Origin: Pseudomonadota bacterium
Lineage (GTDB): Bacteria > Pseudomonadota > Alphaproteobacteria > Rhodobacterales > Rhodobacteraceae
NCBI GenBank assembly: GCA_020161615.1
Contig: JAIUPD010000003.1
Location: 124,001-188,000 of the forward strand
Direction of reading: 5' to 3'
DNA length: 64,000 bases
Shown here: positions 421-58,474 of the stretch, one piece after another
Layout: each line of letters begins with the position of its first letter
Numbering within the stretch: the first letter of the stretch is position 1
Notes under the pieces: model-generated
What the model saw: the letters and a program-made list of their open reading frames with translations, nothing else
What the model was told of the DNA's origin: nothing
Database searches by the model: none
Made by a program: the position numbers and the translations under genes

Positions 421-1452
421 TCAGGCCTCGGACAGCATGTCCTTGACCATGGGGATCACCTGCTCGCCGTAAAGGCGCAGCGCCTCCAGGTTCTTTTCAT
501 GCGGCACGGGACCGGTGGTGTATTTCAGATCGAACCGCTGCACGCCCAGGCCCTTGACCGCGCGCACGATCTTGCGCGCCACCGTCTCGGGCGAGCCGAC
601 GAAGAGCGCGCCATGGGCGACTTCCGCCAGATACCGGTCCTTGGTCGTGGGCGGCCAGCCGCGTTCACGCCCGATGCGGCCGAACATCGCCTGGTAATGC
701 GGCCAGAGGATCTCGCGCGCTTCCTCATCCGTGGCGGCGACGAAGCCCGGGGAATGCACGCCGATCGGCTTTGCCTCGGTCCCGAACTGGTTCACCGCGC
801 GGTGGTAGAGTTCGACATAGGGTTTGAAGCGCAGGGGATCGCCGCCAATGATCGCCAGCATCAGCTGCAGATCCTGCCGCGCCACGCGCACCACCGATTC
901 CGGGCTGCCGCCGACGCCGACCCAGGTGGTCATCGGCTGGCCGAGGCGCGGATAGACCGTCGCATTCCTCAAGGGCGAACGGGTCTTGCCTTGCCAGGTC
1001 ACGCTCTCCTCGCGCAGGAGGCGCGCGAAGATGTCCAGCTTCTCCTCGAAAAGCTGGTCGTAATCGTTCATGTCATAGCCGAAGAGCGGGTAACTCTCGG
1101 TGAAACTGCCGCGGCCCAGGATCGGCTCGGCCCGCCCGTTCGAGACCGCGTTCAGCGTCGAGAAGCGCTGGAACACCCGCACCGGATCGTCGGTCGACAG
1201 GATCGTGACCGCGGTGCCCAGCTTGATGCGCTTGGTGCGGCCGGCGATGGCGCCCAGCACGATCTCGGGCGCCGAGATGGCGAAATCGTCGCGGTGGTGT
1301 TCACCGAGGCCGATGAAGTCGATGCCGAGTTCATCGGCATAGGCCGCTTCCTCGACCACATCGCGCAGCACCTGGTCCATGGGTTTCGGCTGGCCGTCGG
1401 CGCCGGTGCTGATGTCGCCAAACGTGTCGAGGCCGAGGGAAATGTCGGTCAT
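421..1452 (-). CDS. luciferase-like (LLM class) flavin-dependent oxidoreductase
   Basis: A 343-residue protein of the bacterial luciferase superfamily. The N-terminus carries GLDTFGD, then the typical barrel motif GLGEHHRDDF (about residues 49-58), and later GTAVTILSTDDPVRVFQ and GGSPESVVR. This arrangement fits the Atu2307/TIGR03858 subgroup of LLM proteins. Such enzymes use reduced FMN and oxygen to oxidise small organic substrates; the substrate here is unknown. It lies 80 bp downstream of the reductive dehalogenase gene on the same strand with no clear terminator between, so it may be the third gene of that operon. A role in halo-aromatic breakdown is inference from position only. Confidence 0.85.
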   Translation of the reverse strand: MTDISLGLDTFGDISTGADGQPKPMDQVLRDVVEEAAYADELGIDFIGLGEHHRDDFAISAPEIVLGAIAGRTKRIKLGTAVTILSTDDPVRVFQRFSTLNAVSNGRAEPILGRGSFTESYPLFGYDMNDYDQLFEEKLDIFARLLREESVTWQGKTRSPLRNATVYPRLGQPMTTWVGVGGSPESVVRVARQDLQLMLAIIGGDPLRFKPYVELYHRAVNQFGTEAKPIGVHSPGFVAATDEEAREILWPHYQAMFGRIGRERGWPPTTKDRYLAEVAHGALFVGSPETVARKIVRAVKGLGVQRFDLKYTTGPVPHEKNLEALRLYGEQVIPMVKDMLSEA

Positions 1453-1532
1453 GGGAACTCCTGTTTGCCCTCAGCTAAGCCTGCGCGCCCTTTCCGTAAA
1501 GGCGCGAGAACGCAAGCGGGCTGTGCAGCGGC

Positions 1533-4500
1533 TCACAGATCGACGGTCAGCACCCCGGCCGCCTCCCGGGCCCGCGAACAGCAGAGGATGACGCGGTTCT
1601 CCCGTTCCGTGGCCGAGAGCACATAGTCGCGATGTTCAATCCCCTCCGGCGTGTGATGCGTGACCGCGCAGACGCCGCAGATCCCGTCCGAGCATTTGGT
1701 GGGGACAGTGATGCCCACCGCTGCCAGCGCCTCGGTCGCCGATTGGTCAGGGGCCACGGGCACGTCGCGGCCGCTTTTCGTCAGGCGCAGGGTGAAGGGG
1801 TTGTTCACCCAATCGGGCGCCTCGGGAACGGCGAAATATTCGCGGGACAGCGCATCCTCGGGCCAGCCCTGCGCGCGGGCGGCCTCAAAAACGCCATCCA
1901 TGAAGCCGCCGCCGCCGCAGGTATAGAGCTTGGCGCCCGGGGTATAGGGCGGGATCAGCGTGGTCAGGTCCACGCGTGGCCCGTCGGTCTTCACATGCGT
2001 CTGGGCTTGCCCGGCCCAGGGCGCGGCGGCGATCTCGGCCCCGAAGGGCGCCGTGCCGCGCGCGAGGTAATGCAGGCGGAAATCCCGGCCCAAGGCGTGC
2101 AGGCGGTGGGCCATGGTCAGCATCGGCGTGATGCCGATCCCGCCGCCGATCAGCAGGGTGAAGGGAGCGGCCTCATCCAGCGGGAACAGGTTCGAGGGCG
2201 GGGTGACAAAGACCCGCCGCCCCTCGCGGAACACCCGATGGATGAGCAACGAGCCGCCCCGCCCCGCCGCCTCCTTCTGGATGCCGAGGACGTATTTCGT
2301 GCCATCCGCCGGGTTGCCGGCCAGCGAATAATCGCGCTGGTACTCGGGCGCGATCATCAGCGCGACATGGGCCCCGGCCTCGAACGGCGGCAGCGGCTGG
2401 CCATCGGCGCGGGTCAGTTCGAACCGCATCGTGTCGTCGCTCAGATCCTCGCGTTTGGAAATCAGCATGGGGAACACCGGCGGCTCCTCCGGCGGCCTCG
2501 TGCCCGGCACCAGCCCCTCGGTCTGGCCCCGCGCCAACCGGTTGCGGTATTCCTCGGGCGTCAGCATCGCGCGGTAGCGGGCGATCCCCTCCTCGCGGTT
2601 CAGAGGCTGGGTGATCGGGAAAGGCTGCGGCATGACATCGGCGGGATAGACCGCCAGCGTCTGGTCCTCATACTTCAGGTCCAGATCGCGGTTCAGCTCG
2701 CGCCGGTTGGTCTGCGCCGCGGGGACGTACCGCCTGCCCGCCTTGTCCAGTTCGATATCCCACCACCAGGCCTTGACCGGGTTGATCGCGCCGCGCCCCA
2801 GCCGGTCGTCCAGCGCCGCCAAGGCCTTGGCCGAACCCGGCGCGTTCATCGCCAGCCACCGAAACGGCGCCTCGGCGAAGAGCCCTTGCAGGTTCCAGGG
2901 GCAGGTCTTCATGCAGCGCCCGCACATGCCGCCCGCCTGGTTGGTGATCCGGTAGCGGGCGCATTTCTCGGCGTCGGATTTCCAGATCTCATAGCCGTTG
3001 TACATCAGCTTCGGCCCGGCGGTGATCGCGCCCGAGGGGCATTCCCGCGCGCATTTGTTGCAGGAATTGCAGAAGGTCTGGAGGCCGAAGTCGATGGGCT
3101 TGTCGGCGGCCATCGGCATGTCGGTGGTGACACTGCCGGATTTCAGCCGCGGCCCTAGATAGGGGTTCAGAATCACCTCGCCGATCCGGCTGACCTCGCC
3201 CAGGCCCGACAGCAGCAGCAGCGGCGGTTGCAGCACGTCGCCGTCCAGCACCGAATGGACCCGCGCCGAATAGCCCAGCCGCCGGATCTGTTCGGCCACC
3301 ACGCCACCCAGCAGGGAAAAGCGCAGATAAGCCCGCATGGATTGCGCGACGCTGATCCAGTCGTCGCCCGAGGCGCCCTCCATCGTCTCGTGCCCCTGGT
3401 CGAAGAGCATGTTGACGGCGTTCCGGTGATAGGGCTGCAGCGGTTCCCCGGCCGAATTATGCGAGTAATAGGCCCAGTCCGGCACCGCGCAGAGCCCCAC
3501 CGCATCGGCGCTGAGGTAATAGCCTGCCGCTTTCAGATTCTCGGCGTTCTTCTCGGGGTCGGGGGCGGATTGCGGCCCCCGGGCGTCCCCGAATTGCAGG
3601 AGAAGCAGCGCCCCCAGCGCGCGGCGAGCACAGGCGCCGATCGGCGATTTGGCCACATAGCGCCCGCCCTTGGCCCCCTCCTGCACCGATTTCCCCATGT
3701 CGCCGTAGAGCGCCCGGGCGAAGAAATCGGCCCGTTTGGGGAAACGCGGCACGCGGGCATGGTCGATCAGCGTGGTCGGTTCCTCGACCCGTTTCAGCCG
3801 CTCGAACGGGTACGGCCCCTTGCGGAATTCCCGATGCGCGAAGGGTTCGGCGGTGGCCGCCCGGCGGGGCGCGGCGGCACCGGTCCACCAGCCCGGCCCA
3901 TGGCTGCGCGCGCTGCGCCCGTCGCCCTGCAAAGGCGCGTCCGGCGCCAGTTCCAACGTGGTCGTCACCGCCGCGAGGCCGTAGCGCGTGCCCAGATAGG
4001 GGCTGACCGCCGCGCCCCCGTCCACGAAGGCCAGCCCCGAGGAGACTGCCAGCCGCGGCAGATCGACCTCGGAGGTCGACATGGAATGCGCCCGCGCCTC
4101 ATGCCCCAGCATCCGCAGATAGGACGACAGCACTACGGCGGTATTGTTGGCCAGAAGCGCCGCGCGTTCGGCCTGCGTGCCGTGCAGCCAGTCGCAGCCG
4201 GGCTCCCCCTGCCCCGGGTCGCGGGCATAGCCCACGGCGATCAGCAGCGCGAAACGGTGATGGGTGACCGGCCCGTGCGGGGAACGCGCGGCGTCCAGAA
4301 TATCGGCATAGATCGCGTCGATCCCCGCCGCATGGGTCTTCGGCTGGCCCCGCTCCAGCTCCGCGCGCAGCGCGTCGATCATCGGGTTGCGATGCGGCTC
4401 GGGCAGGTGATGGACGGGCTGCAAGGCGCAGACCCCCATCATCGAGGCATCGAAATAATAGCCCGCGGCCTTCAGATGGTTCGAGCGTTCGACCGGATCC

Positions 4501-4727
4501 TCGGGGATCCCCGCCGCCTCATGCACCACCGGCCCCTGCCGCACCGTGTCGAACATCGCCTGGTAGCGCGCCATGGCATGGGTCAGCGAGACCGGGTCGG
4601 GATGGTCGAAGCGCAGCGGCCGCGAGAAGGGCAACGCCGCCGGATCGGCCGAGCCCCCCCGCCGCAGACGCTCCAGCGGAAAAGGGCCGAGGTGCACGGG
4701 ACGGTCGGCATGGGCGAAAAGCGGCAT
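1533..4727 (-). CDS. self-sufficient cobalamin-dependent reductive dehalogenase fused to PDR-type reductase
   Basis: A 1064-residue multidomain enzyme. Residues 1-280 and 300-545 are two related cobalamin-binding-type modules (shared LKAAGYY...GxCA and SPYLG/NPYLG...TT motifs). The second is followed by two [4Fe-4S] sites: Cys553, 556, 559, 563 and Cys589, 602, 605, 609. Residues about 750-1064 form a phthalate-dioxygenase-reductase-like module: RDYSLAG flavin site (798-804), GGGIGITPML nucleotide site (861-870), and a plant-type [2Fe-2S] site at Cys1012, 1017, 1020 and 1049/1050. There is no Tat signal and no rdhB anchor gene, so it is the cytoplasmic catabolic type (BhbA, NpRdhA), which removes halogen from halo-hydroxybenzoates. 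The NpRdhA catalytic residues as I remember them (Tyr426, Lys488, Arg552) fall on Tyr467, Lys529 and Arg593 here, a constant offset of 41. The TGAGG ribosome site overlaps the marR stop codon. Confidence 0.9.
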   Translation of the reverse strand: MPLFAHADRPVHLGPFPLERLRRGGSADPAALPFSRPLRFDHPDPVSLTHAMARYQAMFDTVRQGPVVHEAAGIPEDPVERSNHLKAAGYYFDASMMGVCALQPVHHLPEPHRNPMIDALRAELERGQPKTHAAGIDAIYADILDAARSPHGPVTHHRFALLIAVGYARDPGQGEPGCDWLHGTQAERAALLANNTAVVLSSYLRMLGHEARAHSMSTSEVDLPRLAVSSGLAFVDGGAAVSPYLGTRYGLAAVTTTLELAPDAPLQGDGRSARSHGPGWWTGAAAPRRAATAEPFAHREFRKGPYPFERLKRVEEPTTLIDHARVPRFPKRADFFARALYGDMGKSVQEGAKGGRYVAKSPIGACARRALGALLLLQFGDARGPQSAPDPEKNAENLKAAGYYLSADAVGLCAVPDWAYYSHNSAGEPLQPYHRNAVNMLFDQGHETMEGASGDDWISVAQSMRAYLRFSLLGGVVAEQIRRLGYSARVHSVLDGDVLQPPLLLLSGLGEVSRIGEVILNPYLGPRLKSGSVTTDMPMAADKPIDFGLQTFCNSCNKCARECPSGAITAGPKLMYNGYEIWKSDAEKCARYRITNQAGGMCGRCMKTCPWNLQGLFAEAPFRWLAMNAPGSAKALAALDDRLGRGAINPVKAWWWDIELDKAGRRYVPAAQTNRRELNRDLDLKYEDQTLAVYPADVMPQPFPITQPLNREEGIARYRAMLTPEEYRNRLARGQTEGLVPGTRPPEEPPVFPMLISKREDLSDDTMRFELTRADGQPLPPFEAGAHVALMIAPEYQRDYSLAGNPADGTKYVLGIQKEAAGRGGSLLIHRVFREGRRVFVTPPSNLFPLDEAAPFTLLIGGGIGITPMLTMAHRLHALGRDFRLHYLARGTAPFGAEIAAAPWAGQAQTHVKTDGPRVDLTTLIPPYTPGAKLYTCGGGGFMDGVFEAARAQGWPEDALSREYFAVPEAPDWVNNPFTLRLTKSGRDVPVAPDQSATEALAAVGITVPTKCSDGICGVCAVTHHTPEGIEHRDYVLSATERENRVILCCSRAREAAGVLTVDL

Positions 4728-4736
4728 GGCGAAACC

Positions 4737-5180
4737 TCAGAAATCGGTGGGATCGGGCTCGCCCTCGGCCAGACGGGCCAGGGCGCGGGTGAGGGCGGAG
4801 AGTTCCTCGGGCGTGAGCTTGGCGGCGAAATGCGCCTGCAGGGCATCGCCCGCCCGCCGCACCTCGGCCAGTGCCGCCGCGCCCTGGGGCGTCAGCGCCA
4901 CGGCGGTCTGGCGCCCGTCCTCGCCCCCGGCGGCGGCGCGGGCGATGAGGCCCTTCGCCTCCAGCCCGCGCAAGAGCCGGGACATGGCCGGGCGGGTGAT
5001 GCCGACATAGGCGGCAAGGTCCGAGGGCGTCACGACACCTTCATCCCCCACGCCCCCCAGAACGGCCGCGCCCAACCGCGTCAGCCCCGGGGGCAGTGCC
5101 GCCTCGTGCCGCGCCTGCATCAGCCGCGCCAGCCGCGAGACGCGGAACCCCAGCCTGCCATGCAACCGATAGCCGCTCAC
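4737..5180 (-). CDS. MarR family transcriptional regulator of the dehalogenase operon
   Basis: A winged-helix regulator of 147 residues if the GTG at 5180 is the start. The DNA-binding part shows TPSDLAAYVGITRPAMSRLLRGLEAKGLIAR followed by the wing segment GGEDGRQTAVALTPQG. The GTG is preferred over an upstream ATG at 5234 because GGGAGAGG lies just before it and because the longer form would begin at the edge of a palindromic operator. The stop codon is 9 bp from the reductive dehalogenase start, so the two genes are co-transcribed. MarR proteins of this kind usually repress until an aromatic ligand binds; here the likely ligand is the halo-aromatic substrate (inference). Confidence 0.88.
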   Translation of the reverse strand: MSGYRLHGRLGFRVSRLARLMQARHEAALPPGLTRLGAAVLGGVGDEGVVTPSDLAAYVGITRPAMSRLLRGLEAKGLIARAAAGGEDGRQTAVALTPQGAAALAEVRRAGDALQAHFAAKLTPEELSALTRALARLAEGEPDPTDF

Positions 5181-5214
5181 GATGTCCTCTCCCTTGCGCC
5201 CAGCCTCGCGCAAC

Positions 5215-5233
5215 TGATTACCTATGTCAATCA
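5215..5233. promoter_or_regulatory. candidate MarR operator
   Basis: The 19-mer TGATTACCTATGTCAATCA is an inverted repeat, TGATT-N2-C-N3-G-N2-AATCA. It sits 35 bp upstream of the GTG chosen for marR. On the minus strand it contains TTGACA, a good -35 box. This is the place expected for an autoregulatory MarR site controlling marR, the dehalogenase and possibly the LLM gene. Confidence 0.55.
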
Positions 5234-5264
5234 TCTCGACAAAAGCAAAGGGCCCACCGGCCCC

Positions 5265-5390
5265 TCATCTTTGCGCTTCAAATATCCACGGGGTTTCCAA
5301 AGGGGGGCGTGCCCCCCTTTGGGCAGGGGGCGCGGGGGGCGGCAGCCCCCCGCCTCCGGTCGCCCGAGGGCCACCGAGGGCGAAACCCCT
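5265..5390. repeat. composite 3'-end repeat, copy A
   Basis: GC-rich intergenic element ending at the puuD stop codon. It has the family tail (TTTGCGCTTCAAATATCC), two strong hairpins (around AAAGGGGGGC/GCCCCCCTTT and GGGGGGCGGCAGCCCCCC), the block GGTCGCCCGAGG and the end block CGAGGGCGAAACCCCT. Related copies lie at 18684, 44521, 46168, 55775 and 58190. It may also act as the puuD terminator. Confidence 0.7.
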
Positions 5391-6610
5391 CAGCCTTCCG
5401 TCACGCCCTGATACCAGCGGGTGATCAACGCCCGCTCCTCGGGCTCCATCCAGCTCAGGTTGGCGGGGGGCATGGCATGGGCGCGCCCCGATTGCAGGTA
5501 AATCACCCGCGCGGCGCGAGCGACCTCGGCCTCGGTCTCCAGCCGCAGGCCATGGGGCGCCCAGTTGATGCCGGGATAGGCCGGGTATTCCGAATGGCAC
5601 ATCGAACAGCGCCCGGTCACGGTGTTGTAGACCTCGGGGAATTCCTCGGCCAAGGCGAAGCGCTGGACCGAGGGGGGCAGCGCCGCGACGTCCTCGGGCT
5701 GGCGCAGCGCGGGGGCCACGGACAGCCACATGATCAGGATGAAGATCACCGCCGTCACCGCCCAGGTCCAGGTCGGATTGCCGGTCCGCGCATGGTTCGA
5801 GTTGAAGTAATGCCGGATCGTCACCCCCATCAGGAACACGAGGCTGGCGATGACCCAGGTGTATTCCGTGGCGAAGGCCAGGGGATAATGGTTCGACAGC
5901 ATCAGGAAGATCACTGGCAGCGTCAGGTAATTGTTGTGGGTCGAGCGCTGCTTGGCGATCTTGCCGTATTTCGGGTCAGGCTTGCGGCCCGCTTTCAAGT
6001 CGGCGACCACGATCTTCTGGTTCGGGATGATGATCATGAAGACGTTGGCCGACATGATCGTCGCGGTCCAGGCGCCCAGATGGATCAGCGCCGCGCGGCC
6101 GGTGAAGACCGAGGTGTAGAAATAGCTCATGCCGACCAGCACGACGAAGAGCGCGATCATCACCAGCGTCTGGTTCGAATTGACGAAGCGCTTGCAGATC
6201 TGGTCATAGACCAGCCAGCCGAAGGCGAGCGAGGCCAGCGAGATGCCGATCGCCTGCCAGGGCGCCAGCGCCATCACTTCGGGGTCGATCAGGTAGAATT
6301 CCGAGCCCAGGTAATAGACCAGCACCATCAGGGTGAAGCCGGAAAGCCAGGTCATGTAGCTTTCCCATTTGAACCAGACCAGATGCTCGGGCATCCGCTC
6401 GGGCGCCACCAGATACTTCTGGATGTGGTAGAAGCCGCCGCCGTGGACCTGCCATTCCTCGCCATCGGCGGGGCCCGGGATGTTGCGGTTCAGCCCCAGA
6501 TCCAGCGCGATGAAATAGAAGGACGAGCCGATCCAGGCCATGGCGGTGACCACATGCAGCCAGCGCACGGCGAATTCGGCCCAGGCACCGATGATCGCGA
6601 GTTCGAACAT
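5390..6610 (-). CDS. puuD: urate hydroxylase PuuD, membrane protein with cytochrome c domain
   Basis: A 406-residue integral membrane enzyme that oxidises urate to 5-hydroxyisourate and passes electrons to the respiratory chain. The N-terminus begins with a membrane helix containing WLHVVTAMAWIGSSFYF, and about eight further hydrophobic segments follow up to about residue 305. The C-terminal 100 residues are a soluble cytochrome c domain with the haem motif CSMCH and a distal methionine in AHAMPP. This layout is diagnostic for the PuuD family. It is divergent from the LysR regulator gene and its product feeds UraH encoded at 9.4 kb. Confidence 0.93.
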   Translation of the reverse strand: MFELAIIGAWAEFAVRWLHVVTAMAWIGSSFYFIALDLGLNRNIPGPADGEEWQVHGGGFYHIQKYLVAPERMPEHLVWFKWESYMTWLSGFTLMVLVYYLGSEFYLIDPEVMALAPWQAIGISLASLAFGWLVYDQICKRFVNSNQTLVMIALFVVLVGMSYFYTSVFTGRAALIHLGAWTATIMSANVFMIIIPNQKIVVADLKAGRKPDPKYGKIAKQRSTHNNYLTLPVIFLMLSNHYPLAFATEYTWVIASLVFLMGVTIRHYFNSNHARTGNPTWTWAVTAVIFILIMWLSVAPALRQPEDVAALPPSVQRFALAEEFPEVYNTVTGRCSMCHSEYPAYPGINWAPHGLRLETEAEVARAARVIYLQSGRAHAMPPANLSWMEPEERALITRWYQGVTEG

Positions 6611-9775: not shown

Positions 9776-9930
9776 GGCGCACTCCTGTTCATGGTCCCCG
9801 CCATTCTGCCCAAGCGGCGCGCAAAGGCCAGCCCGCCCGCGCCGCAAAGGTCTTTTCGGGATAATTTGATAAACGCGCCGATTTTTTGGGCTACCCTGAA
9901 GATGAAATGAGACCTGCCGAGGATCCCGTC

Positions 9931-11343
9931 GTGACCGAGCCCCCCCGTTATCCCCGCGACATGATCGGCTACGGCCCCCGCGCGCCCCAGGTTGCCTGGC
10001 CGGGCGGGGCGCGGGTGGCGATCTCGCTGGTGCTGAACTACGAGGAGGGCGGAGAAAACAGCGTCCTGCATGGCGACGGCCAGTCCGAGGCGTTCCTGTC
10101 CGACATCGCCGGGGCCCAGCCCTGGCCCGGTCAGCGCCACTGGAACATGGAATCGATCTATGATTACGGCGCCCGCGCCGGGTTCTGGCGCCTGCACCGG
10201 CTCTTCACCCGCCGCGACCTGCCGGTGACGATCTATGGCGTGGCCACCGCGCTGGCCCGCAGCCCCGAACAGGTCAAGGCGATGAAGGCCGCGCGCTGGG
10301 ACATCGCCAGCCACGGGCTGAAATGGGTCGAGCACAAGGACATGCCCGAGGAAGTGGAGCGCGCCCAGATCGCCGAGGCGATCCGCCTCCATGCCGAGGT
10401 GGTGGGCGAGCCGCCGCGCGGCTGGTACACCGGGCGCTGTTCGGTCAACACCGTGCGGCTGACGGCCGAGATCGGCGCGCTCGACTGGATCTCGGACACT
10501 TATGACGACGACCTGCCCTATTGGCTGGAAGCGGGCGAGCGGGATCAGCTGGTCATCCCCTATACGCTCGAAGCCAATGACATGCGCTTCGCCACCGCGC
10601 CCGGCTGGGTCACGGGGCAGGATTTCGGCCAGTACCTGATCGACAGTTTCGACACGCTCCACGCCGAGGGCGGGCGGATGTTCTCGGTCGGGTTGCATTG
10701 CCGGCTGATCGGGCGGCCGGGGAAACTGGCGGGGCTGATCCGTTTTCTCGATCATGTGGCAGCCAAGGGCGGCGCCTGGTTCGCGACCCGCAGCCAGATC
10801 GCCGATTTCTGGGCCGAACACCACCCGCACCGCCGGTTCGAGCGCCCCTCGCGGATGGACCGCGCCACCTTCGTCCAGCGCTACGGCTCGATCTTCGAAC
10901 ATTCGCCCTGGATCGCCGAACGCGCCTGGGGGCTGGAACTGGGCCCCGCGCATGACACGGCGGCGGGGCTGCACAACGCGCTGGCCCGCATGTTCCGCGC
11001 GGCCTCGGACGAGGAACGGCTGGGCGTGCTGCGCGCCCACCCGGATCTGGCGGGCAAGCTGGCGCAGGCCCGACGGCTGACGGCGGAATCCACCAGTGAG
11101 CAATCCAGCGCCGGGCTCGATGCGCTGACCGATCAGGAACGCACCACCTTCCAGACCCTGAACGGCGCCTATGTCGCCAAGCACGGCTTCCCCTTCATCA
11201 TCGCCGTCAGGGACCACACCAAGGCCTCGATCCTCGCCGCTTTCGAGGCCCGCATCGCCAATGACACCGCGACCGAATTCGCGACCGCCTGCCGGCAGGT
11301 CGAACGGATCGCCGAAATCCGCCTGATGGACCTTCTGCCATGA
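9931..11343 (+). CDS. puuE-uraD: fused allantoinase PuuE - OHCU decarboxylase
   Basis: A 470-residue two-domain enzyme. Residues 1 to about 300 are a PuuE-type polysaccharide-deacetylase-fold allantoinase ([42 protein letters not shown]). Residues about 310-470 are an OHCU decarboxylase with the catalytic HPDLAGKLA histidine, the [10 protein letters not shown] motif and [13 protein letters not shown]. The first domain opens allantoin to allantoate; the second makes S-allantoin from OHCU. Placing consecutive steps on one chain should favour transfer of unstable OHCU product (inference). The GTG at 9931 has GAGGA before it; ATG 9907 and TTG 9886 are alternatives. It overlaps allE as ATGA. Confidence 0.93.
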
Positions 11344-12176
11344 CCACCTATGCCGGGCCCGCCGACGGCCTGCCCCCCCAGACCCAGATCCACACCGGCC
11401 GCGCCGTCTTCACCGAGGCCTATGCGGTGATCCCGAGGGGCGTGATGCGCGATATCGTCACCTCGTACCTCCCGGGCTGGTCGAAGGCGCATGCCTGGAT
11501 CATCGCCCGGCCGATGTCGGGCTTTTCCGAGACCTTCACCCAATACATCCTGACCTTGGACCCCGAGGGCGGCAGCGAGGGACAGGGCGAGCCCGAGGCC
11601 GAGGTGCAGGGCGTCCTCTTCGTCACCGAGGGCCGCCCGGTGCTGACGCTCGAGGGCGAGGAGCACGCGCTGGCGCCGGGCGGCTACGCCTATCTGCCCG
11701 CCGGATCGCGCTGGAGCCTTAGGAACCCGCAGACCACCCCCGCCACGCTGCATTGGGTCCGCAAGATCTGGGAGCCGGCGCCGGGGATCGACAAGCCCGC
11801 GGCCTTCGTCACCAACGAACAGCACCACGCGCCCGCCTCGATGCCCGGGACCAAGGGCGACTGGGCCACGACCCGCTTCGTCGATCCGCGCGACCTGCGC
11901 CACGACATGCATGTGAACATCGTCACCTTCCAGCCGGGCGGCCTCATCCCCTTCGAGGAAACCCATGTCATGGAACACGGGCTCTACGTGCTGGAGGGCA
12001 AGGCGGTCTACAAGCTGAACAAGGATTGGGTCGAGGTCGAGGCCGGCGATTTCATGTGGCTCCGCGCCTATTGCCCGCAGGCCTGCTACGCTGGCGGCCC
12101 CGGCCCCTTCCGTTATCTCCTCTACAAGGACGTGAACCGCCACCCGCGCCTGCGCGGCCCCTGGTCGCGGCCCTGA
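11340..12176 (+). CDS. allE: (S)-ureidoglycine aminohydrolase
   Basis: A 278-residue bicupin. It converts ureidoglycine to S-ureidoglycolate and ammonia in the cytoplasm. The C-terminal cupin has the metal ligand pattern seen in AllE: EETHVMEHGLYVLEG (Glu, His, His) and the later Gln in CPQACY. The N-terminal cupin shows VLTLEGEEHALAPGGYAYLPAGSRW without metal ligands, as in the family. The start overlaps the puuE-uraD stop (ATGA). An 86-bp spacer with a GGGGGT/ACCCCC hairpin follows before allA. Confidence 0.93.
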   Translation: MTTYAGPADGLPPQTQIHTGRAVFTEAYAVIPRGVMRDIVTSYLPGWSKAHAWIIARPMSGFSETFTQYILTLDPEGGSEGQGEPEAEVQGVLFVTEGRPVLTLEGEEHALAPGGYAYLPAGSRWSLRNPQTTPATLHWVRKIWEPAPGIDKPAAFVTNEQHHAPASMPGTKGDWATTRFVDPRDLRHDMHVNIVTFQPGGLIPFEETHVMEHGLYVLEGKAVYKLNKDWVEVEAGDFMWLRAYCPQACYAGGPGPFRYLLYKDVNRHPRLRGPWSRP

Positions 12177-12262
12177 GCCCCCGCCCCTTCATTCTGCCGA
12201 CAATACGCCACGGGGGTCCGGGGGTGTGAAACCCCCGGCTCTCGCCACAAGCGAGCCGCCCG

Positions 12263-12751
12263 ATGCCCCAGACGATCTGCCTCCAGCCCCTCACCGCCTC
12301 GGCCTTCGCCCCGTTCGGCGACGTGCTGGCCGCGACCGGCGCCCCTGACAAGATCATCAACCAGGGCCTCTGCGGGCGGTTCCATGACCGGGCCGCGCTC
12401 GATTTCGGCCCGGGGGGCCGGGCCGGGATCTCGATCTTCAACGCCGAGCCCCGCGCCCTGCCCTACCGGCTGGAGATGGTCGAGCGTCACCCCGAGGGCA
12501 GCCAGGCCTTCCTGCCGCTGCACCAGCAGCCCTTCCTGGTCATCGTCGCGCCCGACGAGGGCGGCCGGCCCGGCCGTCCGCTGGCTTTCCTCACCGATGG
12601 CGCGCAGGGGATCAACCTGCACCGGGGCACCTGGCACGGGGTGCTCACGCCCCTCGCCGCGCCCGGGCTCTTTGCCGTGGTCGACCGGATCGGCCCCACG
12701 CCCAACCTTCAGGAGCATTGGTTCGACACGGCCTATTCCGTGACGGAGTAA
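12263..12751 (+). CDS. allA: ureidoglycolate lyase
   Basis: A 162-residue AllA family protein that splits ureidoglycolate to glyoxylate and urea, the last step of this route. Conserved blocks visible are FAPFGDVL near the N-terminus, ISIFNAEPRALPYRLEMVERHPEGSQAFLPL in the middle, and GTWHGVLTPL with the putative catalytic His and VVDRIG near the end. It follows allE with the same orientation and is followed by the permease gene after 115 bp, which contains a GC-rich hairpin around 12803-12822. Confidence 0.93.
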   Translation: MPQTICLQPLTASAFAPFGDVLAATGAPDKIINQGLCGRFHDRAALDFGPGGRAGISIFNAEPRALPYRLEMVERHPEGSQAFLPLHQQPFLVIVAPDEGGRPGRPLAFLTDGAQGINLHRGTWHGVLTPLAAPGLFAVVDRIGPTPNLQEHWFDTAYSVTE

Positions 12752-12866
12752 CGCACCTCAACCCAGACCGGGGCCAACCCGGCAACGACCTAACCGGACC
12801 GCTTCCCCGGGGGAGGGCGCGGAGACGGCGCGAAAAATCACATCTCCCCCCGGGAAAGGACAGATC

Positions 12867-14270
12867 ATGACCGCCAGCAGCATCGGCACGCCCGAGCAAT
12901 TGCGCGACCCCCATTACACCCCGCCGCTGGGCGTGGCCGTGCCGCTGGGCATCCAGCATGTGCTGGCCATGTTCGTGGCCAATGTGACGCCGGCGATCAT
13001 CGTCTGCGGCGCGGCGGGGATCGGCTTCGGCTCGGACCAGGGGGCGCTCGGGTTCCCCGACATGACCTACATGATCCAGATGTCGATGCTCTTCGCCGGC
13101 ATCGCCACGCTGTTCCAGACCATCGGCTTCGGCCCGGTCGGCGCGCGGCTGCCGATCGTGCAGGGCACCTCCTTCGCCTTCATCCCGATCATGATCCCGG
13201 CCGTGGCGGGGGCGGGCACCGCCGGGCTCGCGGGCCTGCTGACCGGGGTCTTCATCGGCGGGATCTTCCATTTCCTGCTCGGCACGGTGATCGGCCGCCT
13301 GCGTTTCGCCCTGCCGCCCCTCGTCACCGGCCTCATCGTGCTGATGATCGGCCTCGCGCTGGTGCGGGTCGGCATCCAATACGCCGCGGGCGGGGTCCCG
13401 CTGATGGGGACCGAAAATTTCGGTACGCTCGCCAAATGGACCCCGGCGCTGGTGGTGATCGCCGTCACGCTGGCCATCAAGTTCTTCGCCCGGGGCTTCG
13501 CTGCCGTCGCCGCCGTACTGATCGGCATCGTGGCGGGCTATCTCGTGGCGCTGGCCATGGGGCAGGTCAGCTTCGCGCCGATGGACCGGGCTGGCTGGTT
13601 CACCGTGCCCTCGCCCTTCCACTGGGGCTTCCGCTTCGATTGGGCCATCGTCATCGGCATGTGCTTCATGGCCGTCGTCTCGGCCATCGAGACGGTGGGC
13701 GACACCTCCGGCATCACCAAGGGCGGCGCGGGGCGCGAGGCCACCGACAAGGAGATCCAGGGCGCGACCTTCGCCGACGGCCTCGGCACGGCGCTGGCGG
13801 GGGTCTTCGGCGGCCTGCCCAACACCTCCTTCAGCCAGAACGTCGGCCTTGTCGCCATGACCGGCGTCATGAGCCGCCATGTGGTGACCTTCGGCGCCCT
13901 GTTCCTGATCCTCTGCGGGCTGGTGCCCAAGGTCGGCGCCTTCATCAACACGGTGCCGATCAACGTGCTGGGCGGCGGGGTCATCGTCATGTTTGGCATG
14001 GTCTGCGCCTCGGGCATCTCGATGCTGTCGGACGTCACCTGGAACCGCCGCAACATGGTGATCTTCGCCGTCGCCCTGTCGGTGAGCCTGGGCCTGCAGC
14101 TGGAGCCCTCGGCGCTGCAACACCTGCCGCGCACGGCGCAGATCCTGATGACCTCGGGCCTTCTGCCCGCGGCGCTGATCGCGGTGGTGCTGAACCTGCT
14201 GCTGCCGGAACATCTGACCGAGCAAGCCACGGAAGAGATCACCGGCGGCCTCGCCGGATCGAAACACTGA
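12867..14270 (+). CDS. NCS2/NAT family purine (urate/xanthine) permease
   Basis: A 467-residue membrane transporter of the nucleobase-cation symporter 2 family with about 14 hydrophobic segments. The first helix has GIQHVLAMFVANVTP and the family signature QNVGLVAMTGVMSRHV is present near residues 330-345. Position inside the urate island suggests uptake of urate, xanthine or 8-oxopurines; the exact substrate cannot be read from the sequence. An intrinsic terminator follows directly. Confidence 0.9.
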   Translation: MTASSIGTPEQLRDPHYTPPLGVAVPLGIQHVLAMFVANVTPAIIVCGAAGIGFGSDQGALGFPDMTYMIQMSMLFAGIATLFQTIGFGPVGARLPIVQGTSFAFIPIMIPAVAGAGTAGLAGLLTGVFIGGIFHFLLGTVIGRLRFALPPLVTGLIVLMIGLALVRVGIQYAAGGVPLMGTENFGTLAKWTPALVVIAVTLAIKFFARGFAAVAAVLIGIVAGYLVALAMGQVSFAPMDRAGWFTVPSPFHWGFRFDWAIVIGMCFMAVVSAIETVGDTSGITKGGAGREATDKEIQGATFADGLGTALAGVFGGLPNTSFSQNVGLVAMTGVMSRHVVTFGALFLILCGLVPKVGAFINTVPINVLGGGVIVMFGMVCASGISMLSDVTWNRRNMVIFAVALSVSLGLQLEPSALQHLPRTAQILMTSGLLPAALIAVVLNLLLPEHLTEQATEEITGGLAGSKH

Positions 14271-14274
14271 CCCG

Positions 14275-14300
14275 AAGGGGGCCGCCCGGCCCCCTTTTTT
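14275..14300 (+). terminator. intrinsic terminator after the permease gene
   Basis: Stem AGGGGGCCG / CGGCCCCCT around a short loop, followed by a run of six T. It lies 4 bp after the permease stop codon and ends transcription before the deaminase gene, which therefore probably has its own promoter or depends on read-through. Confidence 0.85.
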
Positions 14301-14318
14301 CCACCCCTGGGAGGCACC

Positions 14319-15659
14319 ATGAAAACCCTGATCCGCAACGCCGACGTGGTGGTGACGATGGACGGCGCCCGGCGCGAGCTGGCGGGCGCCTCGGTTCTGG
14401 TCGAGGATGGCGCCATCGCCGCCCTCGGCCCCGGCCTGATCGCCCCGGGGGCCGAGGTGATCGACGCCAGCGGCTGCGTGGTCACCCCGGGCCTGGTGAA
14501 CACCCATCACCACCTCTACCAGTCGCTGACCCGTGCGGTGCCGGGCGGGCAGGATGCGCTCCTCTTCGGATGGCTCAAGACGCTCTACCCGATCTGGGCC
14601 CGCTACCGGCCCGAGGACATGCACCTCTCGACCCAGCTCGGCCTCGCCGAACTGGCGCTTTCCGGCTGCACGATGTCCTCGGACCATCTCTATCTCTATC
14701 CCAACGGGTCGCGGCTCGACGACACGATCCACGCCGCAAGGGCGCTGGGGCTGCGGTTCCACGCCACCCGCGGCGCCATGTCGATCGGCGAATCGAAAGG
14801 CGGCCTGCCGCCCGATTCGCTGGTCGAGGACGAGGCCGCGATCCTGAAGGACAGCATCCGCGTCATCGACGCCTTCCACGATCCCCGGCCCGAGGCGATG
14901 ACCCGCGTCGGCCTCGCCCCCTGCTCGCCCTTCTCGGTCTCCCGAGAGCTGATGCGCGACGCGGCATTGCTGGCGCGGGACAAGGGCGTCATGCTGCACA
15001 CCCATCTGGCCGAGAATGACGAGGATATCGCCTATTCGCTGTCCCAGTTCGGCTGCCGCCCCGGGCAATATGCCGAGGATCTGGGCTGGACCGGCGCCGA
15101 TGTCTGGCACGCCCATTGCGTAAAGCTGGACGCATCGGAAATCTCGCTCTTCGCCCATACGAAAACCGGCGTTGCCCATTGCCCCTGCTCGAATTGCCGC
15201 CTGGGGTCCGGCATCGCCCCCGTCCGGGCGATGCGGGACGCGGGCGTGAAGGTGGGGCTGGGCGTCGACGGCTCGGCCTCGAACGACGCGGGCGAGCTGA
15301 TCGGCGAGGCGCGGCAGGCCATGCTGTTGCAGCGGGTGGCGAACGGCGCCAATGCGATGTCGGCGCGCGAGGCGTTGGAGATCGCCACGCTGGGTGGCGC
15401 TTCGGTGCTGGGTCGGGCGGGGGAACTGGGCTCGCTGGAACCCGGCAAACGCGCCGATATCGCCATCTGGGACCTCCGCGCGCTCCAGGCCGCGGGGTCG
15501 TGGGATCCGGTGGCGGCGCTGGTCCTCTGCGGGCCGCATCGCGTGCGTCACCTGCTGGTCGAGGGACGGGAGGTGGTGCGCGACTTCCGCCTGGTCACGC
15601 TGGATGAACGCGTCCTGGCCGAAAGCGCCCGCCGCGCCACCGCCCGGCTGCTGGCCTGA
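14319..15659 (+). CDS. 8-oxoguanine deaminase (amidohydrolase family)
   Basis: A 446-residue amidohydrolase-superfamily enzyme with metal ligands in NTHHHLYQS (residues about 66-74), HTHLAEND, WHAHCVKLD and GVDGSASND. The HHHLYQ form and the CPCSNCRLGSGIAP segment match the Pa0142-type 8-oxoguanine/isocytosine deaminases rather than guanine deaminase GuaD. The reaction would give urate directly from 8-oxoguanine, which is consistent with its place at the end of the urate island. A good AGG ribosome site lies before the ATG. It converges on sufE with only 3 bp between stops. Confidence 0.87.
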   Translation: MKTLIRNADVVVTMDGARRELAGASVLVEDGAIAALGPGLIAPGAEVIDASGCVVTPGLVNTHHHLYQSLTRAVPGGQDALLFGWLKTLYPIWARYRPEDMHLSTQLGLAELALSGCTMSSDHLYLYPNGSRLDDTIHAARALGLRFHATRGAMSIGESKGGLPPDSLVEDEAAILKDSIRVIDAFHDPRPEAMTRVGLAPCSPFSVSRELMRDAALLARDKGVMLHTHLAENDEDIAYSLSQFGCRPGQYAEDLGWTGADVWHAHCVKLDASEISLFAHTKTGVAHCPCSNCRLGSGIAPVRAMRDAGVKVGLGVDGSASNDAGELIGEARQAMLLQRVANGANAMSAREALEIATLGGASVLGRAGELGSLEPGKRADIAIWDLRALQAAGSWDPVAALVLCGPHRVRHLLVEGREVVRDFRLVTLDERVLAESARRATARLLA

Positions 15660-15662
15660 GCC

Positions 15663-16076
15663 TCAGCCCAAAGCCTCTGTGGCCACCAGCCGGATCCGTT
15701 CGACCATTGCCCGAAGCCCGTTCGAGCGCTGGGACGACAGATGCTCGTCCAGCCCCAGCCGTTTCAGCGCGCCCGCCGCATCGACGCCCGGCACCTCGGC
15801 CAGCGGCCGCCCGGCATAGAGCGCGTGCAGCACGGCAATGAGGCCGCTGACGATCATCGCATCCGAGGCGCCGAGGAAATCGAAGCGCCCGTTCTCGATC
15901 TGGGGAAACAGCCAGACCTGGCTGGCACAGCCGTTCACCTTGTTGGCCGGCACTTTCAGCGCCTCGGGCATGGGCGGCAGATCGCGGCCCAGCTCGATCA
16001 CATGGCGATAGCGGTCTTCCCAATCGTCGAGGAACTCGAAGGTCTCGGCGATCTCGTCAAACTCTGCCTGGGCCAT
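15663..16076 (-). CDS. sufE: SufE family cysteine desulfurase sulfur acceptor
   Basis: A 137-residue SufE-fold protein. The sulfur-accepting cysteine is in the conserved NGCASQVWL motif (Cys at about residue 50). SufE takes persulfide sulfur from SufS and passes it to the SufBCD scaffold for Fe-S assembly. The other suf genes are not in the window, as is common for the stand-alone copy in this family. It is convergent with the deaminase gene and divergent from the lipoprotein gene. Confidence 0.9.
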   Translation of the reverse strand: MAQAEFDEIAETFEFLDDWEDRYRHVIELGRDLPPMPEALKVPANKVNGCASQVWLFPQIENGRFDFLGASDAMIVSGLIAVLHALYAGRPLAEVPGVDAAGALKRLGLDEHLSSQRSNGLRAMVERIRLVATEALG

Positions 16077-43578: not shown

Positions 43579-44520
43579 ATGCCCGAAACCCGCCTCCTGC
43601 CCCCCGATGCGACGGGCCTGTGCGATGCCGCCGGGCTGCTGCGCAGCGGCGCGCTTGTCGCCTTCCCGACCGAGACGGTCTACGGGCTGGGCGGCGACGC
43701 GCGCGACGATGGGGCGGTCGCGGCGATCTTTGCCGCCAAGGGGCGGCCGCGCTTCAACCCCTTGATCGCGCATCTTCCCGGGCTGGCCGAGGTCGAGCGT
43801 TACGCCCGGCTCACGCCGCTGGCGCGGCGGCTGGCGCAGGCCTTCTGGCCCGGCCCGCTGACGCTGGTCCTGCCGCTGAGGGGCGGGCTCTCGCCACTGG
43901 TCACGGCGGGGCTGGACACGGTGGCGATCCGGGTCCCCGCGCATCCCGTGGCGCAGGCGCTGCTGCAGGCCTTCGGCGGGCCGCTCGCCGCACCCTCGGC
44001 CAATCCCTCGGGCCGGATCAGCCCGGTGACGGCGCGTCATGTGCTGGAGGGGCTGGGCGGCCGGATCGCGGCGGTGGTCGATGGCGGCGATTGCGCGGTC
44101 GGGCTGGAATCGACGATCCTCGACGCCACGGGCGAGGTGCCGGTGCTCCTGCGCGCGGGGGGCCTGCCGGTCGAGGCGATCGAAGCACTGGGATTGAGGG
44201 TCGCGGCGCGCCAGGGCAGCGCCATCACCGCCCCCGGGCAACTCGCCTCGCATTACGCACCGCGCGGGCGGGTGCGGCTGGAGGTCACCGAGCCCGAACC
44301 CGGCGAGATCTGGGTCGGCTTCGGCCCCTGCCCCGGCGCCGCGCTGACGCTGAGCGAGGCGGGTGACACCACCGAGGCCGCGGCCCGCCTGTTCCACGCC
44401 CTGCACGAGGCCGATGCGCTGGCCGGCCCCGAGGGACGCATCGCCTTTGCCCCAGTGCCCGAGACGGGGCTGGGGCGCGCCATCAACGACAGATTGCGCC
44501 GCGCCGCGGCGCCGAGATAG
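43579..44520 (+). CDS. threonylcarbamoyl-AMP synthase (Sua5 type)
   Basis: A 313-residue two-domain enzyme. The YrdC-like domain (residues about 10-200) has FPTETVYGLGGDARD and KGRPRFNPLIAHL, and APSANPSGRISPVTARHV; the C-terminal Sua5 domain follows an APGQLASHYAPR linker. It makes threonylcarbamoyl-AMP for the t6A37 modification of tRNAs reading ANN codons. The longer form is the Sua5 version, not the single-domain TsaC. The stop is followed at once by composite repeat copy C. Confidence 0.93.
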   Translation: MPETRLLPPDATGLCDAAGLLRSGALVAFPTETVYGLGGDARDDGAVAAIFAAKGRPRFNPLIAHLPGLAEVERYARLTPLARRLAQAFWPGPLTLVLPLRGGLSPLVTAGLDTVAIRVPAHPVAQALLQAFGGPLAAPSANPSGRISPVTARHVLEGLGGRIAAVVDGGDCAVGLESTILDATGEVPVLLRAGGLPVEAIEALGLRVAARQGSAITAPGQLASHYAPRGRVRLEVTEPEPGEIWVGFGPCPGAALTLSEAGDTTEAAARLFHALHEADALAGPEGRIAFAPVPETGLGRAINDRLRRAAAPR

Positions 44521-44620
44521 CGGGGGGCTGCTCGCCCCCCGCACCCCCTCGCCAGAGGGGGAAGCAGGCTCCCCCCTCTGGACACCCCCCCTGCGTATTT
44601 GAAACAAAGTGAATGAAGAA
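44521..44620. repeat. composite 3'-end repeat, copy C
   Basis: Follows the Sua5 stop directly. Three hairpins (GGGGGGCTGCTCGCCCCCC, a CCCTC/GAGGG pair, and GAGGGGGAAGCAGGCTCCCCCCTC) and the tail TGCGTATTTGAAACAAAG. Orientation is opposite to copy A, matching a plus-strand gene end. It differs from the consensus in the tail. Confidence 0.6.
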
Positions 44621-58189: not shown

Positions 58190-58474
58190 CCGCCCCCAGA
58201 GACCGCAAAGGGCGGGGGGCTGCCGCCCCCCGCACCCCCTGCCCAAAGGGGGGCACGCCCCCCTTTGGAAACCCCGTGGATATTTGTAGCGCAAAGATGA
58301 AGATTAAGAGGGCGTTACGCCGACTTCTTTGCGCGACAAATATCCTCGGGGGGTGAATTGGCCGTCAGGCCAAGAGGGGGGCAGAAAGCCCCCCTTCTTC
58401 GGCGCCGCGGAACGCGGCGCCGCTGGTCGCCCGAGGCGCCCGCGGCAGCGGGCAACGAGGGCGAAACCCCTCGC
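58190..58474. repeat. head-to-head pair of composite 3'-end repeats, copies F1 and F2
   Basis: Fills the gap between convergent DUF3445 and RND genes; no gene is present. F1 (58190-58305): GGGGGGCTGCCGCCCCCC and AAAGGGGGGC...GCCCCCCTTT hairpins, then GTGGATATTTGTAGCGCAAAG. F2 (58322-58474, reverse): TTTGCGCGACAAATATCC, GGGGGGCAGAAAGCCCCCC, GGCGCCGCGGAACGCGGCGCC, GGTCGCCCGAGGCGCCCGC and CGAGGGCGAAACCCCT ending at the RND stop codon. Confidence 0.75.

Follow-up and report, generated by a model that had tools for sequence, protein, structure and literature searches.

The 64,000-nucleotide stretch of rhodobacterial DNA analysed here (the window: positions 124,001 to 188,000 of contig JAIUPD010000003.1, assembly GCA_020161615.1) carries on its minus strand, at 1533..4727, a gene (rdhA) for a protein of 1064 residues that we regard with high confidence as a cytosolic, self-sufficient catabolic reductive dehalogenase of phenolic substrates, probably repressed by a MarR-family regulator. 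By analogy with characterised enzymes, it would very probably remove bromine or iodine from compounds of the phenol type. The enzyme belongs to a known and widespread type, common among its relatives; what our analysis contributes is a probable regulatory switch ahead of the gene and a pocket residue that differs between two branches of the family.

Architecture of the RdhA–reductase fusion

The gene, taken from the list of open reading frames (ORFs) and starting with ATG, lies on contig C3 (526,506 bp) of a 26-contig draft genome, and its reading frame is uninterrupted from end to end in both of the nearest relatives (96% and 86% identical). The protein scores 194.1 bits against the NCBIfam model TIGR02486 "reductive dehalogenase" (cut-off 160.35) in two stretches, and Pfam places a double [4Fe-4S] domain at residues 553–612 and a Fer2 [2Fe-2S] domain at residues 984–1053. 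In a phmmer search of PDB sequences, the top relatives are three sequences of NpRdhA from Nitratireductor pacificus (E 6.6e-167 to 3e-166; 4ras, 6.6e-167; 6zxu, 8e-167), with the best stretch at residues 156–732 and a further stretch at 1–105. Ranked after them, phthalate dioxygenase reductase (PDOR; 2pia) aligns over residues 746–1060 with an E value of 3.4e-54.

The protein begins with a copy of the B12 domain (residues ~1–290; 3858..4727 (-)), identified through the N-terminal half of NpRdhA, the second TIGR02486 stretch and a fold match. This copy is described as vestigial and does not bind cobalamin according to PMC10463259. It is followed by the catalytic cobalamin core with two [4Fe-4S] motifs (residues ~300–735; 2523..3830 (-)), supported by Pfam, TIGR02486, phmmer and alignment, and by a PDOR tail comprising flavin and NAD(P)H domains and the C-terminal [2Fe-2S] ferredoxin domain (residues 746–1064; 1536..2492 (-)), supported by Pfam, phmmer and the fold match. 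The eight cysteines of the core (553, 556, 559 and 563; 589, 602, 605 and 609) are invariant in all 41 aligned sequences, the window protein included. A 51-residue insert (residues 105–155; 4263..4415 (-)) is evident from the alignment rows and from the gap between the two NpRdhA-matched stretches, into which residues 106–155 fall. All 51 of its columns are occupied in 92 of the 92 rows of the two fusion clades described below, 50 in BhbA and in the Nitratireductor OM-1 protein, and 10 in the reductase-less protein L015; the row of L016 spans residues 281–716 only and was excluded from this count.

The N-terminus is level with residue 1 of NpRdhA, and neither this alignment nor reading by eye reveals a twin-arginine translocation (Tat) signal, a feature of respiratory RdhAs, in agreement with the preliminary description of this DNA. 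With regard to rdhB, the membrane anchor that accompanies respiratory RdhAs, judged from the immediate neighbours only, the genes flanking rdhA encode a MarR-family regulator and a luciferase-like monooxygenase.

An AlphaFold2 model built from a 30-sequence alignment (window protein included; mean pLDDT 73.1, pTM 0.71) provided the structural comparison with NpRdhA that had been proposed at the outset. NpRdhA chains take the first 14 places among its PDB matches (E 1.1e-52 to 1.4e-50), with TM scores of 0.82–0.84 by target length and 0.55–0.57 by query length and an rmsd of 5.0–6.2 over 739–747 columns; self-sufficient P450s with a reductase tail and 2pia come next. Parts of the modelled catalytic core, among others residues 319–333, 447–455, 494–526 and 562–584, have pLDDT values below 50, and we therefore draw no pocket geometry from the model.

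Closest homology to epoxyqueuosine reductase (QueG)-type proteins, which lack dehalogenase activity, had been named in the preliminary description as one of two findings that would refute a dehalogenase. QueG is a member of the same cobalamin group (class III; PMC10463259), and the window protein does match the corresponding model, TIGR00276, weakly over residues 487–613; the score is, however, 30.8 bits against a cut-off of 200, while the fold and the PDOR tail fit NpRdhA and PDOR. A separate 350-residue frame on contig C4 with a weak RDH match (29.0 bits) may itself be QueG. On the TIGR00276 score, the NpRdhA and PDOR sequence matches and the fold match of the model, a QueG-type identity is rejected and retains hardly any probability. 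The one-chain architecture first proposed for the protein, with a cobalamin module, two [4Fe-4S] sites, a flavin and NAD(P)H reductase and a [2Fe-2S] domain, is borne out by TIGR02486, Pfam and the NpRdhA and 2pia matches, as is its assignment to the catabolic BhbA/NpRdhA-type class.

Catalytic residues, pocket and family branches

Aligned residue by residue with NpRdhA (phmmer; 46% identity over 505 aligned core positions), the protein carries the catalytic residues Y426, K488 and R552 as Y467 (codon 3327..3329 (-)), K529 (3141..3143 (-)) and R593 (2949..2951 (-)), each with an offset of +41. The three residues had been proposed in the preliminary description, and the alignment places them, and no others, at these positions. 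In NpRdhA, Y426 is the proton donor, and the roles reported for the catalytic residues are proton donation and hydroxyl binding (PMC7565698). S422, M423 and F291 likewise correspond to S463, M464 and F336. Y467, K529 and R593 are invariant in all 41 aligned sequences, and in a 96-row alignment all six residues are identical in 92 of 92 fusion-clade rows as well as in BhbA and the Nitratireductor OM-1 protein. By comparison, A419, N452, F310 and P311 of NpRdhA are replaced by V460, V493, Y357 and V358 in the window protein.

Among characterised enzymes, the same architecture is seen in JtRdhA from the marine Jhaorihella thermophila (WP_104007082), the self-sufficient representative examined in depth and described in 2023 as an NADPH-dependent, oxygen-tolerant enzyme acting on bromo- and iodophenols (PMC10463259). 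Like the window protein, JtRdhA is a self-sufficient RdhA–PDOR fusion with no Tat signal, a duplicated B12 domain, an insert relative to NpRdhA, and the residues Y426, K488 and R552 retained; chlorinated analogues only inhibit it, with no turnover of chlorophenols (PMC10463259). The tree in the same paper contains further RdhAs from Ruegeria, Pseudovibrio and others. BhbA, from plasmid pBHB of Comamonas sp. 7D-2 (WP_015585978), is likewise a full-length fusion, 50.2% identical over 100% of the query. It shares the catalytic residues and has Phe at position 335, but it has Ser for V460, Ala for V493 and Ser for Y357. NpRdhA shares the RdhA fold, the catalytic residues and the vestigial domain, and differs in having neither the PDOR tail nor the 51-residue insert (alignment; PMC10463259). 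A limited literature search on the genera of the window clade and on aerobic or catabolic RdhA turned up no further self-sufficient enzymes.

The cofactors, electron route and substrate class proposed here are taken over by analogy from JtRdhA and NpRdhA. NAD(P)H would reduce the flavin of the C-terminal PDOR domain, from which single electrons would pass via the [2Fe-2S] cluster and then the two [4Fe-4S] clusters to cobalamin. With a phenolic substrate held in place by S463, K529 and R593, cobalt in its reduced state would take off a halogen in the position ortho to the hydroxyl, and Y467 would supply the proton. The product would be a less halogenated hydroxyaromatic compound, which might feed into PobA and LigB-type ring cleavage. 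The "halogenated hydroxybenzoates" originally suggested as substrates are probably best read as bromo- and iodo-compounds first, with chloro-compounds less certain, because JtRdhA acts on bromo- and iodo- but not on chlorophenols.

Relatives of the protein are abundant. In a family-wide even draw, 112 of 295 genomes (own genome included; three of the matches partial) match at E ≤1e-150. Among 59 other genomes searched as relatives, 11 match from query residue 1–4 to residue 1064, one matches partially (G005; residues 3–517) and two match in the core only (G036 and G042); four full matches and one partial match come from the 17 of these genomes that belong to the same genus. Of 593 pattern-bearing stretches in a collection of genome contigs, at least 564 code for a relative; the best 80 were retained. 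Ten plasmid records match, eight of them over ≥80% of the query. The closest named relative among the matches listed, from which records very near the window may have been omitted, is that of Pararhodobacter aggregans (96%).

A quick maximum-likelihood tree, calculated from 96 rows (midpoint root, two long outgroup rows, no bootstrap, 17 open forks; L005, L014 and L035 excluded as copies or fragments), places the window protein in a clade of 31 sequences with an SH-aLRT support of 100, together with proteins from Pseudorhodobacter, Chelativorans, Pannonibacter, Albidovulum, Nitratireductor XY-223 and Burkholderiales (Limnohabitans, Ramlibacter and Hydrogenophaga among them). The other clade, of 61 sequences (SH-aLRT 96), comprises Ruegeria, Pseudovibrio, Oricola, Maritalea and others, and BhbA and the Nitratireductor OM-1 protein lie outside both under the midpoint root. 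The rows of the tree do not include JtRdhA or the R. pomeroyi and Ochrobactrum enzymes. At 13 of the 1064 window positions the two clades are separated with ≥85% agreement inside each, and one of these is F335 (codon 3723..3725 (-)), the counterpart of the NpRdhA pocket residue F290 (pocket role, PMC7565698). In the window clade, this position is Phe in 29 and Trp in two of the 31 sequences, whereas in the sister clade it is Met in 59 and Leu in two of the 61; BhbA, OM-1, L015 and L016 also have Phe.

We hypothesise that the residue at the F290 position is a determinant of halogen range. NpRdhA, with Phe at 290, reduces chlorinated hydroxybenzoates as well, including 3,5-dichloro- and 3-chloro-4-hydroxybenzoate (PMC7565698), which JtRdhA does not do (PMC10463259), and since F335 keeps the NpRdhA-like pocket state, shared with BhbA and replaced by Met in the sister clade, the window enzyme could conceivably be a dechlorinase as much as a debrominase. 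We consider this unlikely. F290 is named nowhere in the available text of PMC10463259 (F291 is), so that the JtRdhA residue there is not readable from it; F290 is mentioned once in the available text of PMC7565698, with no mutant; and V460 and V493 depart from NpRdhA in the window clade too. Tentatively, and with a similarly low probability, the window clade may form a branch of its own among the self-sufficient dehalogenases, with a distinct pocket (Phe rather than Met at NpRdhA 290) and, in many members from the Alphaproteobacteria, a MarR switch that senses the substrate and has a dedicated operator, and it might differ from the Ruegeria/Pseudovibrio branch in the halogens or phenols accepted, chlorine included. 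According to the Discussion of PMC10463259, the basis of the rejection of chlorinated substrates by JtRdhA is still to be determined, and whether the fusions are restricted to brominated compounds is unclear. The Phe/Met split between two supported clades offers a one-residue test of halogen range, for which the window enzyme is a natural representative of the Phe state.

The MarR gene and its operator-like site

A gene for a MarR-family regulator, listed at 4737..5234 (-), lies 9 bp upstream of rdhA in the same direction. It was identified from the ORF list, Pfam and the comparison of neighbours, and its winged-helix domain is recognised by both PF12802 (42.4 bits, cut-off 27) and PF01047 (32.9 bits, cut-off 24.6). 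The listed start overlaps an operator-like palindromic site, ATTGACATAGGTAATCA, at 5215..5231 (-), found by motif search and pattern scans, and the GTG at 5180 is therefore the more likely start.

Both the gene and the site recur. With a profile made from 17 loci of the cluster to which the window MarR belongs, 20 of 92 loci show a MarR gene within 2 kb of rdhA. In 18 of them the gene is upstream and on the strand of rdhA (L024 and L035, both among the 18, are the same genome), and in L034 and L102 it is downstream on the other strand. Two further MarR relatives seen in the comparison of neighbours, in L058 and L064, were missed by the profile, probably through the overlap filter, and the Aminobacter plasmid rdhA locus also has a MarR gene. 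A motif search of 17 upstream regions, with a sampler that assigns one site per sequence by design, reached a score of 210 (best of four starts) as compared with 120.5, 120.8 and 125.0 in three letter-shuffled control sets (best of two starts each). The pattern RTTRACANNGDYAAYYA was written from the sites of this search, so that its counts on the 17 regions use the sites from which it was derived: with at most one mismatch it occurs in 16 of 17 regions versus 1 of 1651 further 220-bp tiles taken from these loci, and with two mismatches in 17 of 17 versus 12 of 1651.

Among 74 loci not used for the pattern, RTTRACANNGDYAAYYA occurs within 900 bp upstream of rdhA only in L058 and L064, both of which have an upstream MarR gene; it was not found upstream of rdhA in L034 and L102, and the background is 6 of 1169 other 930-bp tiles. 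For some of these held-out loci the contig extends less than 900 bp upstream, and at least two (L026 and L055) are the same genome. In the 4.87-Mb genome to which the window belongs, the site at 5215–5231 is the sole exact match to the pattern. Allowing up to a single mismatch gives three matches (two besides the exact one), no more than for a reversed control pattern, which also has three, and we therefore claim no wider regulon.

The arrangement suggests that MarR and rdhA form an operon, which the MarR protein would probably repress at 5215–5231 until a substrate-like ligand binds. In a limited look at the literature on MarR and reductive dehalogenases, the word MarR is absent from the available text of PMC10463259. 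The gene and site may offer a route to the natural substrate: if the protein is a repressor, the ligand that releases it is probably the compound that the enzyme serves to convert. Immediately upstream of the MarR gene (5266–5354) lies one copy of a dispersed repeat, GC-rich, ~89 bp long and itself containing inverted repeats; others are at 58211–58299 (-) and 44520–44603 (-) and, in L022, at 3719–3807 and 15694–15765.

Genomic neighbourhood and weighing of the substrate

On the other side of rdhA, 80 bp downstream, lies the gene for a luciferase-like flavin monooxygenase (LLM; TIGR03858; 421..1452 (-)), identified from the ORF list, NCBIfam and Pfam scans and the comparison of neighbours. Among the 92 loci, the only ones with this gene next to rdhA are those of the window's genome and of two genomes of the same genus, and a role as a conserved partner is therefore not supported. 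No general neighbour of rdhA emerged from the ORF clusters around the 92 loci, of which ten representatives were scanned. Subsets of loci have a short-chain dehydrogenase, parts of TRAP and TTT transporters, molybdopterin/FAD dehydrogenase subunits, a VanA-like oxygenase, ECH, LysR or a Na/H exchanger. A length-weighted choice of genes was discarded, as it selected antisense frames in this DNA.

Elsewhere in the genome, PobA is found over cut-off at C4:370615, with LigB-type matches at C4:364525 and C4:368722, both within ~6 kb of it. CobN is also over cut-off when its pieces in one frame are combined; the TGA in the second piece looks like a normal stop, because the match ends about one codon after it. 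Of four annotated plasmid-borne relatives inspected, two adjoin genes of aromatic catabolism: the BhbA locus, with ligA and an extradiol dioxygenase alongside, and the Nitratireductor OM-1 locus (L129), with pobA, an extradiol dioxygenase and regulators. The L129 dehalogenase groups with BhbA, and this plasmid perhaps carries a complete halo-hydroxybenzoate route.

Several observations count against a MarR-repressed phenolic dehalogenase. PF13486 gives no score for the 1064-residue protein in the Pfam scan. The majority of homologous loci are without a MarR gene (upstream on the same strand in 18 of 92 by profile, plus two). Neither the window's rdhA nor the plasmid genes of Ruegeria TM1040 and Aminobacter adjoin a gene of an aromatic pathway, and the LLM neighbour of the window's rdhA has no known link. 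No match to protocatechuate 3,4-dioxygenase is over cut-off in the genome, and ring cleavage would therefore have to be of the LigB type. Because A419, N452, F310 and P311 are replaced, the substrate may differ from that of NpRdhA.

These pocket differences and the absence of a halogen-specific neighbour would also suit an enzyme of the same RdhA–PDOR fold that acts on a non-halogenated or otherwise different substrate, for example another phenolic compound or a nitrogen heterocycle connected with the purine genes next door, which include a urate oxidase-type gene and, by eye, other ORFs resembling purine degradation. Such a substrate is improbable in our judgement: all 92 fusions and BhbA have identical residues for hydroxyl binding and proton donation, and the purine genes are not beside the 86%-identical homologue in the 17 kb compared. 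We keep to a halogenated phenolic substrate as the preferred reading.

When 28 kb around the window's gene is compared with this homologue (G017, L025), the sole blastn match (E 1e-20) is window 430–5352, which spans MarR-rdhA-LLM, and the DNA compared on either side does not match; in the 96% relative, by comparison, the match extends outward on both sides of 430–5352. A link to the purine genes was set aside, as MarR-rdhA-LLM alone is shared in the 17 kb compared. The purine-degradation genes around the locus lie at 5390–6610 (-) and 9886–15659, with a Pfam match to the urate oxidase N-terminal family PF06181; by eye, ORFs near the locus resemble allantoin/ureide, xanthine-permease and amidohydrolase genes. 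Outside the shared block, ~1.3 kb left of the window, an ORF at L022:15957–16661 (-) looks by eye like a methyltransferase corrinoid protein; it contains the motif GDIHDIGKN, which we take to mark such proteins, and may be another B12 protein nearby.

The genome also encodes a second, short reductive dehalogenase of 391 residues (L001:1132–2307 (-); contig C8 of G000, ~43.8–44.3 kb), which scores 24.6 bits with PF13486, over cut-off, and 147.7 with TIGR02486, below cut-off. It is a different protein from the window enzyme, too short for the vestigial copy and the PDOR tail. Its motifs CDICTRCAEACP and CAICLRVCP are near the CDICTKCADACP and CAICMRVCP of Ros_A3X954, which, like A0A2T7UTL8, is a short reductive dehalogenase that shares with the window protein a catabolic role and no Tat signal (PMC13101508). 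A Pararhodobacter aggregans protein 72.2% identical to Ros_A3X954 is reported to reduce triiodophenol (PMC13101508).

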